This document shows, one piece after another, positions 11,105 through 34,701 of a DNA stretch of 34,701 nt. Position numbers and translations under genes: made by a program. Below the pieces are notes generated by a model. That model worked only from the letters and a program-made list of their open reading frames with translations, was not told where the DNA came from and made no database searches. How positions within the stretch are numbered: the first letter of the stretch is position 1; every line of letters begins with the position of its first letter. The DNA comes from Tsukamurella sp. M9C (lineage in GTDB: Bacteria; Actinomycetota; Actinomycetes; Mycobacteriales; Mycobacteriaceae). The stretch covers positions 1-34,701 of the forward strand of contig NZ_JAIULG010000054.1 in assembly GCF_020169415.1 (NCBI RefSeq), given 5' to 3'.

Positions 11105-11779
11105 CTAGCGGGCGCGGCGCGCCAGACGCTCGGAGTCGGTGATCACCACGGACTTGCCCTCGAGGCGCAGCCAGCCGCGGTGCGCGAAGTCGGCCAGCGC
11201 CTTGTTCACGGTCTCGCGGGAGGCGCCGACGAGCTGCGCGATCTCCTCCTGCGTGAGGTCGTGCGTCACCCGAAGTGCGCCGTTCTCGTGCGTGCCGAAG
11301 CGCTGCGCGAGCTGCAGCAGCTGCTTGGCGACGCGGCCGGGGACGTCGGTGAAGATGAGGTCGGCCAGGTTGTTGTTGGTGCGGCGCAGGCGGCGGGCCA
11401 GCACGCGCAGCAGCTGCTCGGCGATCTCGGGCCGGTCCCGGATCCACGCGCGCAGGGCCTCGCGGTCCATCGTCATCGCGCGGACCTCGGTGATGCAGGT
11501 CGCGCTCGACGTGCGGGGGCCGGGGTCGAAGATCGACATCTCACCGAACATGTCCGACGGGCCCATCACGGACAGCAGGTTCTCGCGGCCGTCCGGGGAG
11601 CGACGGCCGAGCTTCACCTTGCCGGACAGGATGATGTACAGCCGGTCGCCGGGCTCGCCCTCGTTGAAGATGACGTGGCCACGGGGGTAGTCGACCTCGT
11701 GCAGATCCTTGGTGAGCGCATCGACCGCGCCCGGCTCGACACCCTGAAAAATGCCGGCCCGCGCCAGGACCTCGTCCAC
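11105..11779 (-). CDS. crp: cAMP-receptor-type transcription regulator (Crp/GlxR)
   Basis: A 224-residue CRP/FNR-family regulator, the same length as M. tuberculosis CRP (Rv3676). The N-terminal cyclic-nucleotide domain carries the phosphate-binding cassette [16 protein letters not shown], with Gly79, Glu80, Arg89, Thr90 and Ser91. Thr134 and Asn135 lie in the long C-helix. The winged helix-turn-helix [21 protein letters not shown] covers about 175-195. The GTG start at 11779 has GAGG six bases upstream. Family knowledge: a global regulator of carbon metabolism, respiration and resuscitation genes that binds TGTGA-N6-TCACA. A CRP-like site overlaps its own promoter, and three further candidate sites lie in this window. 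Confidence 0.95.
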
Positions 11780-29269: not shown

Positions 29270-30211
29270 CAAGCACACCTACCCCGGACAGGAACGGTTC
29301 GTCGCCGCGGCCGACGACGTCGTGGTCGGCGCGGTCGACGCCGTCGCCAAGGACGTGGAGCCCGCTGGCTTCTGGAAGACGGCGTGGTTGCAGCTGAAGG
29401 TCAAGCCGTTGTTCTGGGTCTGCGTCGCGCTACTCGCGTTGATCCTGCTCGTAGTGCTGTTCCCGTCGGTGTTCGCCTTCGGAAGGGATCCGCACGAGGC
29501 ATCGCTCGACCGATCGCTCCTTCCGCCCAGCGGTGAGCACTGGTTCGGGACGGATCTGCAGGGCTATGACATCTACGCGCGGACCATCTACGGTGCTCGC
29601 GCGTCGGTGCTCGTCGGCGTACTCACCACCCTCGCCGTGGTGGTGGTCGGCGGCATTCTGGGCGCCACGGCGGGGTTCTACGGCGGTTGGTTGGACTCCT
29701 TGATCGCCCGCCTCTCGGACATCTTCTTCGGCGTCCCGCTCATGCTGGCGGCCGTCGTGGTCATGCAGATGGTCAGCTCGCGCACCGTCTACTCGGTGGT
29801 GCTGGTGCTCGCGATCTTCAGTTGGCCGCAGATCGCGCGCATCGCGCGGTCGGCGGCGATCTCGATCCGCAACGAGGAGTTCATCGACGCCTCGAAGTCG
29901 TTGGGCTCCTCCAAGGTCCGGACGCTGTTCACCCACGTGATCCCGAACTGCCTCGGGCCGGTCATCGTCGTCGCCACCGTGGCGCTGGGCATCTACATCG
30001 TCACTGAGGCCACGCTGTCATACCTGGGGATCGGGCTTCCGGCCAGTGAGGTCTCCTGGGGCATGGACATCTCGGACGGACAGACCCTCCTCCGCGAGGG
30101 CACCCCGATCCTGTTCTTCCCCGCGACCGCACTGGCGATCACCGTGCTCACGTTCATGATGCTCGGTGACGTCCTGAGCGACGCACTCGATCCGAAGGCG
30201 AGGAAGCGCTG

Positions 30212-30212
<1 letters not shown>
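29262..30212 (+). CDS. dppC: Dipeptide ABC importer permease DppC-like
   Basis: A 316-residue permease with an N-terminal soluble extension and six helices. GTDLQGYDIYARTIYGARASVLVG is characteristic of DppC/OppC (usually GTDxxGRDxxSR). The EAA loop is EEFIDASKSLGSSKVRTLFTHVIPNCLGPVIV. The dppB stop lies inside its start region, and its own stop TGA shares one base with the dppD ATG. Confidence 0.94.
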
Positions 30213-31990
<1,778 letters not shown>

Positions 31991-32016
31991 CCCGCAGGGA
32001 CGGGTGACGAGCGGGC

Positions 32017-32022
32017 TAGGGT
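32017..32022 (+). promoter_or_regulatory. -10 element of the Fic-like gene, leaderless start
   Basis: TAGGGT at 32017-32022 is followed by seven bases and the GTG at 32030. This supports 32030 over an in-frame GTG at 32021, which overlaps the -10 itself. Confidence 0.5.
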
Positions 32023-32029
32023 GGGTCGT

Positions 32030-32767
32030 GTGAACGACCCGCTGAGCCCGCTCGTCGCCGTCCCCGCCGTCGCGGAGGCGGCAGCCGCCGCCCGGGAGGC
32101 GCTCGCCACGGTGCACCGTCATCCCGCGAACCGCCGGGAGTGGCGGGCCACCGCGACGGAGTCGTCGCTCCGAGGCGCCCGCGCCTCGGCCGCCCTCGAC
32201 GGTGCGGCCGTCGCGCTGAGCCGGGACGAGCTGATCAATGATCCGGTGCTCGCCGGGGCGATGCGCGCCTATCAGGCGATCGACGGCGACCTGCTGGACG
32301 CCTCGGTCGGGGTGTGGCGGCGCGCGCCGCTGCAGGTGCTCGCGAGGCTGCACACGCTCGCGGCGGCGGACCTCGTCGACGGCGACGACTCCCGGCTCGG
32401 CCGGCCGCGCGCCGGCGCGGGGGAGCGACTCGGACTGCTGGCGCAGCTCGTGACCGGCGGCACGGAGGCGCCCGCGCCGGTGGTGGCCGCGATCGTGCAC
32501 GGGGAACTGCTCTCGCTCCGGCCCTTCGAGGTGGCCGACGGGACTGTCGCCCGCGCCGCGTCGCGGCTGGTGACGGTGGCGTCGGGTCTCGACCCGCACG
32601 CGCTCGGCATTCCCGAGACCACGTGGTTGAAGTTCGCGCCCAGCTACGCCGACGCCGCGGACGCGTTCGGGATGGGCGACCCCGACGGCGTGGTGGCCTG
32701 GGTGGTGCTGTGCTGTCAGGCACTGGAGGCCGGCGGTAGGGAGGCGTTGGCGCTCGCGGAGCGCTGA
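32030..32767 (+). CDS. Fic-fold protein with degenerate active site (Rv3662c-type)
   Basis: A 245-residue soluble protein in the position of Rv3662c. The segment AAIVHGELLSLRPFEVADGTVAR (about 153-175) follows the helix-loop of Fic AMP-transferases, whose motif is HPFxxGNGRxxR. Here the catalytic His is Arg164, and the Asp, Asn and central Arg are also lost, while Pro165, Phe166, Gly171 and Arg175 remain. Upstream, RASAALDGAAVAL (51-63) resembles the N-terminal SSxIEGN segment of Fic proteins. A catalytically dead Fic-fold protein is therefore the best reading; it may be a binding or regulatory protein. The start at 32030 is fixed by the -10. Next to it lies the Ms1-like RNA. Confidence 0.7.
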   Translation: MNDPLSPLVAVPAVAEAAAAAREALATVHRHPANRREWRATATESSLRGARASAALDGAAVALSRDELINDPVLAGAMRAYQAIDGDLLDASVGVWRRAPLQVLARLHTLAAADLVDGDDSRLGRPRAGAGERLGLLAQLVTGGTEAPAPVVAAIVHGELLSLRPFEVADGTVARAASRLVTVASGLDPHALGIPETTWLKFAPSYADAADAFGMGDPDGVVAWVVLCCQALEAGGREALALAER

Positions 32768-32805
32768 CAGGGAAATCCGCTGCGGCGGTCCGGTATTCGG
32801 TCGAA

Positions 32806-32894
32806 CGGACCCGGACATGCGCAACGGCGACCCGGCCTGAGCTGAGGAAGGGGCACTCAAGGTGCTTTCCTCAGAACGGGTCCGAATCGCCGTT
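32806..32894. other. Interleaved inverted repeats around a hairpin (possible pseudoknot)
   Basis: Four perfect 8-base arms are interleaved. A is CGGACCCG (32806-32813) with A' CGGGTCCG (32877-32884). B is AACGGCGA (32823-32830) with B' TCGCCGTT (32887-32894). They enclose the hairpin whose arms are CTGAGGAA (32842-32849) and TTCCTCAG (32867-32874), with an inner GCAC/GTGC stem. The A-B-hairpin-A'-B' order allows either two exclusive folds or a pseudoknot. Confidence 0.55.
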
Positions 32895-33147
32895 CGCTAG
32901 CACGGATCCCGGTTACCAAGCGTGCGTGAGGGTGGGCTGTATTACGGCCTCGGCGTCTACCGGTGGAGAGATCCACTATCCGCGGATCTTGTGCTGACCA
33001 CTGATTCCCCGGCGACGCAGGCTCACAGCGCTTTCCGCCATAGGTGGCGAGCTCCGCGTGGGTGCCTGGTGTCCGTGCTGGGAGCCTTGACGCTCAGGAA
33101 TCCCCGACCTTCTCTTCCGGTGAGGATTTAGCTTTGCGCCGCTCCGT
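32842..33147 (-). ncRNA. Ms1/MTS2823-like RNA polymerase-binding small RNA (candidate)
   Basis: The 459 bases between the Fic-like gene (ends 32767) and the HAD gene (ends 33227) hold no convincing protein gene. In mycobacteria the same gap (Rv3661-Rv3662c) encodes Ms1/MTS2823, an abundant stationary-phase RNA of about 300 bases that binds core RNA polymerase without sigma factor. Here a minus-strand promoter (33182-33154) predicts a start near 33147. A strong hairpin CTGAGGAA...TTCCTCAG ends about 305 bases later at 32842, the expected length. Internal self-complementary segments include ATCCGCGGAT (32978-32987) and a GTGGA/TCCAC stem (32963-32976). Identity rests on position, size and structure, not on sequence comparison. 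The exact ends are estimates, and the RNA could extend to 32806 through the interleaved repeats. Confidence 0.65.
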
Positions 33148-33153
33148 GACTCC

Positions 33154-33182
33154 TTTCTACCCTGTGAGCGCCATCACATCAA
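33154..33182 (-). promoter_or_regulatory. Promoter of the Ms1-like RNA
   Basis: On the minus strand TTGATG (33182-33177) and TAGAAA (33159-33154) are separated by 17 bases. This is one of the few clear -35/-10 pairs in the window, which suits a strongly expressed RNA. The predicted start is near 33147. Confidence 0.55.
33163..33178. promoter_or_regulatory. Perfect CRP operator in the Ms1-like promoter
   Basis: TGTGA-GCGCCA-TCACA matches the CRP consensus TGTGA-N6-TCACA at all ten conserved bases and overlaps the -35 and spacer of the minus-strand promoter. The centre is about 23 bases upstream of the predicted start, a position that usually gives repression. Confidence 0.7.
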
Positions 33183-33193
33183 GAGGTAGGGCG

Positions 33194-33222
33194 GAAAAAT
33201 CTCGGATCAGTTGCTACTGATC
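33194..33222 (-). terminator. Terminator of the HAD-family gene
   Basis: GATCAGT (33205-33211) and ACTGATC (33216-33222) form a perfect seven-base stem with a four-base loop, directly after the HAD stop codon. On the minus strand it is followed by a T5 run (33199-33195), a classic intrinsic terminator. It separates the HAD gene from the Ms1-like transcription unit. Confidence 0.75.
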
Positions 33223-33226
33223 GGTA

Positions 33227-34048
33227 TCAGTGCTTCTTGCGGTGCAGCACAAGGTAAGTCGCGACGCCAGCTCCCGCGGCCACCACGCCGAGGCCGGCGC
33301 TCGCGAGGACCGAATTCCGCGACGGTGTGGGTATCCGGTCGCGCAACGGTGTGGGGTTCGAGAAGGAGACCACGGGCCAGCCGCGCTCCGCGGCCTCCTT
33401 GCGCAGGCCGCGATCGGGGTTGACTGCGGTGGGATGCCCGACTGCAGCGAGCATCGGAACGTCGGTGATCGAGTCCGAGTAGGCGAAGCACTGCTCGAGG
33501 TCGTAGCCGTGCTCGGCCGCGAGCGCCTCCATCGCGACGACCTTGTTCTCGCCGTAGCAGTAGAACTCGACCTCGCCCGCGTACTTGCCGTCCTCGACCT
33601 TCATCTTCGACGCGACGGAGTAGTCGGCGCCCAGCATCTCGGCGATGGGGCTCACCATCTCCTCGCCGGAGGCCGAGACGATGACCACGTCGTGCCCGCG
33701 GGCGTGGTGGCCGGCGATCAGCTCGGAGGCCTCGGCGAAGACGAGCGGGTTCACGACGTCGTGCAGGGCCTCGCGCACGATGGACGTGACCTGCTCCACG
33801 TTCCAGCCCTCGCACATCTGCGTGAGGTGGTCGCGCATGCGCTCCATCTGGTCGTGGTCGGCCGCCGTCAGCATCATCAGGAACTGCGCGTAGCTCGACT
33901 TGAGCACGGCACGGCGGTTGAGCAGCCCCTCGTCGAAGAAGGGACGCGAGAAGGCCAGCGCGGACGATTTCGCGATGATCGTCTTGTCCAGGTCGAAGAA
34001 GGCGGCGACCCGGCGCACCGGGGCCTCGTCGGGCGCGGTAGGGCTCAC
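33227..34048 (-). CDS. HAD-IB family phosphatase with C-terminal membrane anchor
   Basis: A 273-residue haloacid-dehalogenase superfamily hydrolase, subfamily IB (SerB-like), homologous to Rv3661. Motif I FFDLDKTIIAKS holds nucleophile Asp19 and Asp21, motif II is VVIVSASGEEMV, and motif III/IV is YSDSITDVPMLAAVGHP. A C-terminal hydrophobic helix (about 243-264, LASAGLGVVAAGAGVATYLVL) ends in basic residues, suggesting a tail anchor with the enzyme in the cytosol. The GTG at 34048 is chosen because TAGGCT lies seven bases upstream; an in-frame start at 34090 would cross that promoter. The substrate may be phosphoserine, a lysophospholipid head group or another monophosphate. It is divergent from ssd. 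Confidence 0.88.
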   Translation of the reverse strand: MSPTAPDEAPVRRVAAFFDLDKTIIAKSSALAFSRPFFDEGLLNRRAVLKSSYAQFLMMLTAADHDQMERMRDHLTQMCEGWNVEQVTSIVREALHDVVNPLVFAEASELIAGHHARGHDVVIVSASGEEMVSPIAEMLGADYSVASKMKVEDGKYAGEVEFYCYGENKVVAMEALAAEHGYDLEQCFAYSDSITDVPMLAAVGHPTAVNPDRGLRKEAAERGWPVVSFSNPTPLRDRIPTPSRNSVLASAGLGVVAAGAGVATYLVLHRKKH

Positions 34049-34055
34049 GGGAATC

Positions 34056-34061
34056 AGCCTA
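34056..34061 (-). promoter_or_regulatory. -10 element of the HAD-family gene, leaderless start
   Basis: TAGGCT on the minus strand (34061-34056) is followed by seven bases and the GTG at 34048. Confidence 0.5.
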
Positions 34062-34106
34062 CCGGTGCGGTGGCGCTGCGCACCCCGCAAGAGCGGAGAC
34101 CGGATT

Positions 34107-34152
34107 CCTCCACAACTTTCCCGAATCGGACAGGTTCATCCACAGGTGGAGG
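34107..34152. repeat. Inverted repeat in the HAD-ssd divergent region
   Basis: CCTCCAC (34107-34113) pairs with GTGGAGG (34146-34152), while TCCAC (34139-34143) can pair with the same right arm as a tight hairpin. It lies upstream of both the HAD gene and ssd. The function is unknown. Confidence 0.3.
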
Positions 34153-34196
34153 CGGGATCGGGCGAACCGGACAGGCTCCGGGGTGACGCTGTGCCC

Positions 34197-34701
34197 ATGC
34201 GGGGGATCGAGATCGGGATGGCGGTGGCGGACGGGGCACTGGCCGACGACGTGCGGCGGGCCGCGGCGGCGGCCGCGCGGTCGGTCACGGACATCGACCG
34301 GGGCAGGCCCCGCGCGTGCTGGGCATCGGCCGCCGGGCTGGTGCTGGACCTCGCGGCCGCGACGGCGATGGCGGAGGCCGCGCGCGCCGGCGGTCTGCCG
34401 CGCCGGGAGGGCGTCGCCCTGGTCGCGGTCGAGGCGGGGATGCCGGAACTGGCGGCGGCCGTCGAGGTGGGGGCGGCGCAGGTCTTCGTGCTGCCCGGGC
34501 AGGTGCGTGACCTGGCACGCTTCCTCGCCGCCCGGGAGCAGGACGACGGTGCGCGCTCCCGCGTCGTCGCCGTCGTCGGCGGGCACGGCGGCGCCGGCGC
34601 CTCGGTCCTGGCGGCCGCCGTCGCGGTGACGGCCCCGGGCCGCGGGATCACCGCCCTGGCCGTCGACGCGGACCCGTGGGGCGGCGGCCTGGACCTCCTG
34701 C
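34197..34701 (+). CDS. ssd: Septum-site-determining/CpaE-like protein Ssd, 5' part (cut by window end)
   Basis: The first 168 codons of an open frame that runs off the window. It opens MRGIEIGMAVADGALADD, with a receiver-like N-terminal region, and then has SRVVAVVGGHGGAGASVLAAAVAV near residue 120. That is a divergent nucleotide-binding loop without the lysines of the MinD/ParA Walker A. It continues into TALAVDADPWGGGLDLL, the strand and D-x-D that follow in CpaE/MinD-type proteins. This pattern and its position opposite the HAD gene match Rv3660c (Ssd), a CpaE-like protein that affects septum formation and usually precedes tight-adherence pilus genes. An in-frame GTG at 34191 is an alternative start. 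Confidence 0.8.
   Translation, partial: MRGIEIGMAVADGALADDVRRAAAAAARSVTDIDRGRPRACWASAAGLVLDLAAATAMAEAARAGGLPRREGVALVAVEAGMPELAAAVEVGAAQVFVLPGQVRDLARFLAAREQDDGARSRVVAVVGGHGGAGASVLAAAVAVTAPGRGITALAVDADPWGGGLDLL

Follow-up and report, generated by a model that had tools for sequence, protein, structure and literature searches.

What does the gap at 32768–33226 in Tsukamurella sp. M9C encode, between the stop codon of a convergent gene (32767) and that of a HAD gene (33227), and what might control it? An initial annotation of the window (the whole stretch of 34,701 nucleotides that was analyzed) had taken this gap as the positional equivalent of the mycobacterial Rv3661–Rv3662c gap and placed the RNA polymerase-binding RNA Ms1 (MTS2823) on its minus strand. 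MTS2823 is reported to sit between Rv3661 and Rv3662c (PMC3207917), and mycobacterial Ms1 is a structured RNA of ∼300 nt that binds the RNA polymerase core (PMC4191392) and stores polymerase in stationary phase.

Both strands of 32500–33500 were searched with covariance models under an E-value threshold, the check that had been suggested for Ms1. The minus strand at 33147–32856 matched Rfam family RF02566 over its full length (model positions 1–304 of 304; 94.6 bits; E = 6.3e-24), the single match to this family in the 4.73-Mb genome; three further Rfam matches in the searched interval (two miRNA families and EBER1; E 3.4–7.4) were at chance level and were discarded. At Rfam gathering cut-offs the window gave zero matches, the gathering score of RF02566 being 162. 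The last helix of the model is poorly filled and the central arm is shortened in this sequence, both of which lower the score. All 16 genus genomes searched contained a match (86–125 bits, none above 162), as compared to none of 14 control genomes. Under stricter filters, with which some weak matches were lost, matches were found in 138 of 151 family genomes and in 25 of 101 order genomes, 12 of the latter from the family. The 13 family genomes with no match comprise all 10 of genus g3 (2.2–3.0 Mb; putatively Corynebacterium, which would be consistent with PMC9130861) and one each of g4, g9, and g18. Only 24 of the 138 matched family genomes pass the gathering score (127 of the 151 fall below it, including the 13 with no match); the cut-off therefore reflects the database and does not mark a border of the family, and it hides many Ms1 genes from routine annotation. 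A published survey likewise states that Rfam yields only candidates close to mycobacteria (PMC9130861).

The neighboring genes agree with this assignment, and the gap does correspond in position to the mycobacterial one (Table 1). The upstream protein is a HAD-IB family hydrolase (TIGR01490, 215 bits, above cut-off; PF12710 also matched), whose open frame extends to 34090. Among its best 80 loci, it shares 97% identity with Tsukamurella asaccharolytica, 86% and 75% with two other Tsukamurella, and at most 72% with the next genera (Williamsia, Rhodococcus, Mycobacterium, Nocardia, and others). The convergent gene had been called Fic-like; the gene is present and its product was matched by tblastn in 92 of 95 loci, but it has zero Pfam and zero NCBIfam family matches and is labeled oxidoreductase in the annotation of T. 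tyrosinosolvens, where the gene order is the same. The same label is used for Ms1 synteny in PMC9130861, so that HAD hydrolase gene, Ms1, and convergent oxidoreductase- or Fic-annotated gene follow one another here as at other Ms1 loci. The Ms1 stretch of T. tyrosinosolvens carries no listed feature, in a gene table that omits RNA genes. As to a mobile origin, a search of the phage collection gave no match, and the HAD protein was without relatives in viral contigs. Two records of the plasmid collection matched, T. tyrosinosolvens “plasmid 27” and, in part, a 2.66-Mb Nocardia farcinica record. The gene order of “plasmid 27” (NZ_LR134469.1) is that of the window (ssd, HAD-IB, Ms1 stretch, oxidoreductase, and ABC transporter), and with these usual neighbors the record is therefore probably a chromosomal contig. 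6C RNA, reported to lie one gene from Ms1 in mycobacteria and in Streptomyces coelicolor (PMC6582537), was found neither in the window at 33900–34700 (E ≤ 5) nor in the whole genome (E ≤ 0.001), by loss or strong divergence.

Table 1. Features of the Ms1 locus and its candidate regulator (window coordinates)
Feature	Position	Strand	Basis or remark
crp gene (candidate Ms1 regulator)	11105..11779	-	same window, 21 kb from Ms1
Convergent neighbor, conserved protein of unknown family (“oxidoreductase”/“Fic-like”)	32021..32767	+	tblastn match
Ms1 RNA gene	32815..33147	-	Rfam RF02566 match; 5′ end predicted (33147), 3′ end inferred
Expanded 3′ terminal hairpin	32821..32897	-	25-pair helix plus 3-pair inner stem, no U-tract
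−10 hexamer TAGAAA	33154..33159	-	read from sequence; genus conservation
CRP/GlxR-type palindrome TGTGATGGCGCTCACA	33163..33178	-	pattern match; −31 to −16, overlaps −35
−35 hexamer TTGATG (TTGMTG in genus)	33177..33182	-	read from sequence; genus conservation
Terminator-like hairpin and T-run behind HAD gene	33205..33222	-	hairpin scan
HAD-IB family hydrolase gene	33227..34048	-	upstream, same strand as Ms1; GTG start taken at 34048

On the full-length match, the synteny, and the promoter and covariation described below, the minus strand from about 33147 to 32815 is almost certainly the Tsukamurella ortholog of Ms1 (MTS2823). The gene does not extend Ms1 to a new lineage, as had been supposed: MTS2823-related sRNAs including one of Tsukamurella paurometabola were reported in 2011 (PMC3207917), and Tsukamurella is included in Table 4 of a 2022 survey with Ms1 candidates in 824 species (PMC9130861). 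Ms1 is thus already reported for the genus, and the gene itself is therefore ordinary.

The RNA has a sigma-A-like promoter of its own. TTGATG is followed by 17 nt, TAGAAA, 6 nt, and the predicted adenine start (+1), and all 16 genus genomes retain CTTG[AC]TG, GGTA[CG]AAA, and ACGGA. A sigma-70 promoter scan found none, because its rule requires T at position 6 of the −10 element; the hexamers were recognized by eye. Upstream of them, the HAD gene is followed by a minus-strand stem and T-run resembling a terminator (one found, 0.4 expected in shuffles), and both the terminator and the independent promoter just after it had been anticipated by the initial annotation. Ms1 would accordingly be transcribed as its own unit. 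For M. smegmatis Ms1, 5′ RACE is reported to place the start at an adenine, with upstream sequences that resemble sigma-A hexamers (PMC4191392; promoter elements summarized in PMC8628891).

Between the promoter hexamers lies the palindrome TGTGATGGCGCTCACA, centered at about −23.5. TGTGA-N6-TCACA is the CRP/GlxR consensus. This pattern occurs once in the window (0.01 expected) and at nine places in the 4.7-Mb genome, as compared to zero for a reversed control pattern. Within the genus, the palindrome is perfect in 14 of 16 genomes and has one changed base, in one arm, in the other two (L083 and L086); the arms are otherwise invariant, while five of the six inner positions vary. In other genera of the family, each represented by one genome with an Ms1 match, 18 of 29 have at most two mismatches, as compared to 0.31 of 29 for base-shuffled promoters (two perfect, 12 with one mismatch, four with two, one with three, and 10 with four or more). 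A palindrome at the Ms1 promoter is thus commoner than chance.

A second sample of 80 named relatives was scored on the best candidate promoter frame per locus, 78 of which could be parsed (L064 and L066 were left out). In this sample, which was drawn by HAD similarity, includes many close relatives, and shares three Tsukamurella with the genus set, the count of mismatches is at most one at 41 loci, two at 15, and three or more at 22; L048 was scored as mismatched solely for a one-base spacer shift and otherwise has none. The bulk of the group with three or more mismatches is Mycobacterium, where 18 of 21 parsed loci have 4–6 (L028, despite its title Mycobacterium sp. UM_WGJ, is grouped here with Mycolicibacter). 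In genus g28, the palindrome is absent (5–6 mismatches) in six of six loci, five of five among the 30 best-scoring family loci (L130, L131, L134, L137, and L139) and a sixth from the 29-genera set (L173), and CTTGC and the −10 element are kept, pointing to a separate loss of the operator. Genus g30 is mixed, with one mismatch in five of its nine loci among the same 30. At L140, also one of the loci scored in that set, a perfect palindrome is visible a few bases upstream of the scored position, so that its count of four mismatches does not hold. Given its absence from most parsed Mycobacterium loci, from 10 of 29 genera, and from g28, Ms1 as such does not require the palindrome. Beyond the family, 13 loci were compared, which come from six genera only and of which five are near-identical; 10 of these 13 have two mismatches (0.10 loci expected with at most two). 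Four of them show a joint replacement of the two outer bases that gives AGTGA…TCACT, again a perfect palindrome, and Amycolatopsis bartoniae (L079) has the same form; binding by a dimeric protein would be expected to impose such a symmetric change of the arms.

A cognate CRP is encoded in the genome, in the same window. The crp product aligns over its full length (∼430 bits) with the Crp/Fnr-family chains 3H3U, 3MZH, 3D0S, and 3I54, which we take to be M. tuberculosis CRP (Rv3676), and among the genome's 12 HTH_Crp_2 matches it ranks first, at 67 bits as compared to 32 for the next. With this candidate regulator at hand, the palindrome is probably a true CRP-family operator. That it is instead a feature of the promoter, or the target of another Crp/Fnr-type dimer, we consider unlikely. 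The left arm overlaps the −35 element and part of it may therefore be kept for sigma, the 11 weaker HTH_Crp_2 matches offer other candidates, and some clades lack the palindrome. However, the right arm (−20 to −16) corresponds to no promoter element and is conserved nonetheless, beside inner positions of which most vary; the paired change of outer bases beyond the family is that of a dimer target; and exact palindromes are as rare in the genome as given above.

A CRP dimer bound near −23.5 would be in a repressor position, where sigma must sit. CRP on the palindrome would thus repress Ms1, because the bound dimer would block sigma, and the cAMP/CRP signal would therefore gate the amount of polymerase stored, provided that the Tsukamurella RNA is made and bound to core RNA polymerase as its studied relatives are. 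As a whole, the locus is best explained, with a probability of roughly 95%, as an Ms1 ortholog with its own transcription unit, putatively repressed by CRP. Direct cAMP-CRP control through an operator between −35 and −10 is more likely than not to be ancestral in Mycobacteriales and in nearby Pseudonocardiaceae-like families, with independent losses in most of the Mycobacterium species examined and in other clades.

The conserved CRP-type palindrome in the Ms1 promoter is new as far as the literature could be searched; no report of such a site was found in the searchable literature on Ms1/MTS2823/ncRv13661/scr3559, although an earlier mention may exist. In the text available from each source, the words CRP and cAMP are absent from PMC9130861 and PMC11077062, the word CRP is absent from PMC4191392 and PMC8628891, and CRP control of Ms1 is not stated in PMC8044303, PMC5360333, PMC11656743, PMC11464796, PMC8172932, or PMC10719064; CRP appears solely as a sigma-A partner in the corresponding text of PMC12709188. 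The nearest precedent is C. glutamicum 6C RNA (not Ms1), described as tied to the GlxR network (PMC6582537). The factor behind the stationary-phase rise of Ms1, including the sigma factor needed, was described as unclear in 2014 (PMC4191392). A CRP-type operator that many genera retain and others have lost supplies a definite candidate for the regulator, and the clades with and without it form a natural experiment; if the proposal is true, polymerase storage is coupled to the cAMP signal of the cell and has been rewired in the lineage with M. tuberculosis-like species.

The RNA itself is predicted to be structured. The minus-strand fold of 32800–33147 gave z = −4.9 (0 of 100 shuffles as good), that of 32830–33147 gave z = −3.1 (1 of 100), and that of the Rfam extent, 32856–33147, gave z = −2.4 (2 of 200), as compared to z = −1.2 (9 of 100) for the plus strand of 32830–33147. 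Over the 16 genus sequences, 97.7% of cells are paired at 104 predicted pairs, and the two helices on the outer side of the central bubble hardly change, with 19 of 20 pairs constant. Two-sided changes occur at 18 pairs, whereas shuffles gave 7.9 (none of 500 reached 18) and slid controls 2–5; further pair types, one of five measures, were not above shuffles (37 versus 35.5; 135 of 500). One alignment served both to derive the structure and to score it, a procedure in its favor, and these counts are of sequences rather than of independent events. The base-paired structure is thus conserved, with compensatory changes, as in Ms1.

A strong hairpin had been noted ∼305 nt downstream of the promoter, matching an RNA of about 300 bases. 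The hairpin is real and forms the tip of a larger 3′ helix, whose 88-nt fold gave z = −5.7; conservation suggests that the RNA probably runs beyond the first hairpin to about 32815, giving ∼333 nt. In the genus, 99.2% of cells of the 3′ hairpin are paired, the outer helix is nearly invariant, and five of 25 pairs carry compensatory changes. Five genomes (L083, L084, L086, L087, and L090) share two-sided changes at four pairs of the inner stem, perhaps the outcome of one event within a single clade. In other genera, the RNA mostly ends in a smaller GC-rich hairpin of the type GCGGGCGG…CCGCCCGC, with a T-rich stretch after several, as compared over 28 loci, two of them Tsukamurella and four with no anchor motif; some loci of other genera (e.g., L020, L039, L042, and L079) also have no clear T-run. 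The end of the RNA thus looks like a genus-specific expanded hairpin, and this covarying 3′ hairpin with no U-tract is, as far as could be searched, new to the literature.

A true 6S RNA, which would bind the sigma-A holoenzyme and serve as template for pRNA, is very improbable. Ms1 and 6S RNA are described as having related structures, and Ms1 first came to light when 6S RNA was being sought (PMC9130861, PMC4191392), but RF00013 had no match in the genome at E ≤ 0.001 (five of 14 control genomes match), and the family matched here is one whose studied members are reported to bind core polymerase with no primary sigma factor (PMC4191392, PMC9130861). The initial label of a 6S-like RNA needs one correction: Ms1 binds core RNA polymerase and is, strictly speaking, no 6S RNA (PMC4191392). 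There is equally little to recommend reading the gap as merely the 3′ untranslated tails and terminators of the HAD and convergent genes, with no separate RNA. Convergent genes would be expected to have paired terminators, and a terminator-like hairpin does lie behind the HAD gene; a match along all 304 positions of a covariance model, an invariant RNA start and a promoter conserved in all 16 genus genomes, and covariation inside the RNA would not be expected of such tails. A plus-strand gene for a small protein (32922–33131, 69 amino acids) can be dismissed, since the frame, although open in Tsukamurella sp. M9C and, at 73–120 amino acids, in six of 15 genus relatives, and although tblastn found similar stretches in 24 of 95 loci (15 in the genus), which overlap with a conserved RNA would equally give, is cut to 14–56 amino acids with frame-changing indels in the other nine relatives and has no Pfam match. 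The earlier view that no protein gene is supported in the gap is thereby upheld. Of the two ORFs of at least 60 amino acids that start inside the Ms1 RNA, this plus-strand frame is one; the other, a long minus-strand frame (29993–32860) that runs antisense through both neighbors, looks like a shadow frame of G+C-rich DNA.

As an Ms1 RNA, the Tsukamurella sequence resembles Ms1 of M. smegmatis and MTS2823 of M. tuberculosis in its full-length RF02566 match and its neighbors, and shares with M. smegmatis Ms1 the adenine start, the sigma-A-like promoter (PMC4191392 for M. smegmatis), and a long hairpin with a central bubble. It differs from the mycobacterial RNAs in its shorter central arm, its expanded 3′ hairpin with no U-tract, its score below the Rfam cut-off, and the perfect CRP-type palindrome of its promoter, which 18 of the 21 parsed Mycobacterium loci lack. 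This palindrome shares its consensus with the CRP/GlxR operators of Actinobacteria, and the crp gene is present here. The S. coelicolor ortholog scr3559, compared by description, likewise lies beside a HAD gene and is reported to bind core polymerase in vivo (PMC9130861). The general plan, a long hairpin with a bubble in an RNA abundant in stationary phase, is reminiscent of 6S RNA (RF00013), which in contrast binds the holoenzyme with the primary sigma factor and is unmatched in this genome. CoRP RNA of Corynebacterium, in the same order, is likewise an abundant structured RNA on RNA polymerase but is ∼500 nt long and is described as having close homologs only in Corynebacterium (PMC11077062). 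In stationary phase, MTS2823 is reported to rise about ten-fold (PMC3207917) and Ms1 about 130-fold (PMC4191392), and in stationary M. smegmatis Ms1 is reported to account for more than 60% of the reads of polymerase-bound RNA (PMC11077062). Core polymerase binding is described for M. smegmatis and S. coelicolor, and in M. tuberculosis the RNA is found on RNA polymerase (PMC4191392, PMC9130861, PMC11077062).

Extra Ms1 copies have been reported in M. nebraskense, M. celatum, Rhodococcus jostii RHA1, and a Rhodococcus plasmid (PMC9569102). Among the genomes searched here, two second matches (L149 and L150; 29.1 and 27.6 bits) lacked the core motifs on inspection and look like chance. Second, shorter Ms1-like copies (∼250 nt; L144–L148) were seen in five genomes of three genera that also have a longer Ms1. 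One further genome (G026) has two copies (L151 and L152), both short and both with a CRP-like promoter palindrome that, as judged by eye, carries one mismatch.
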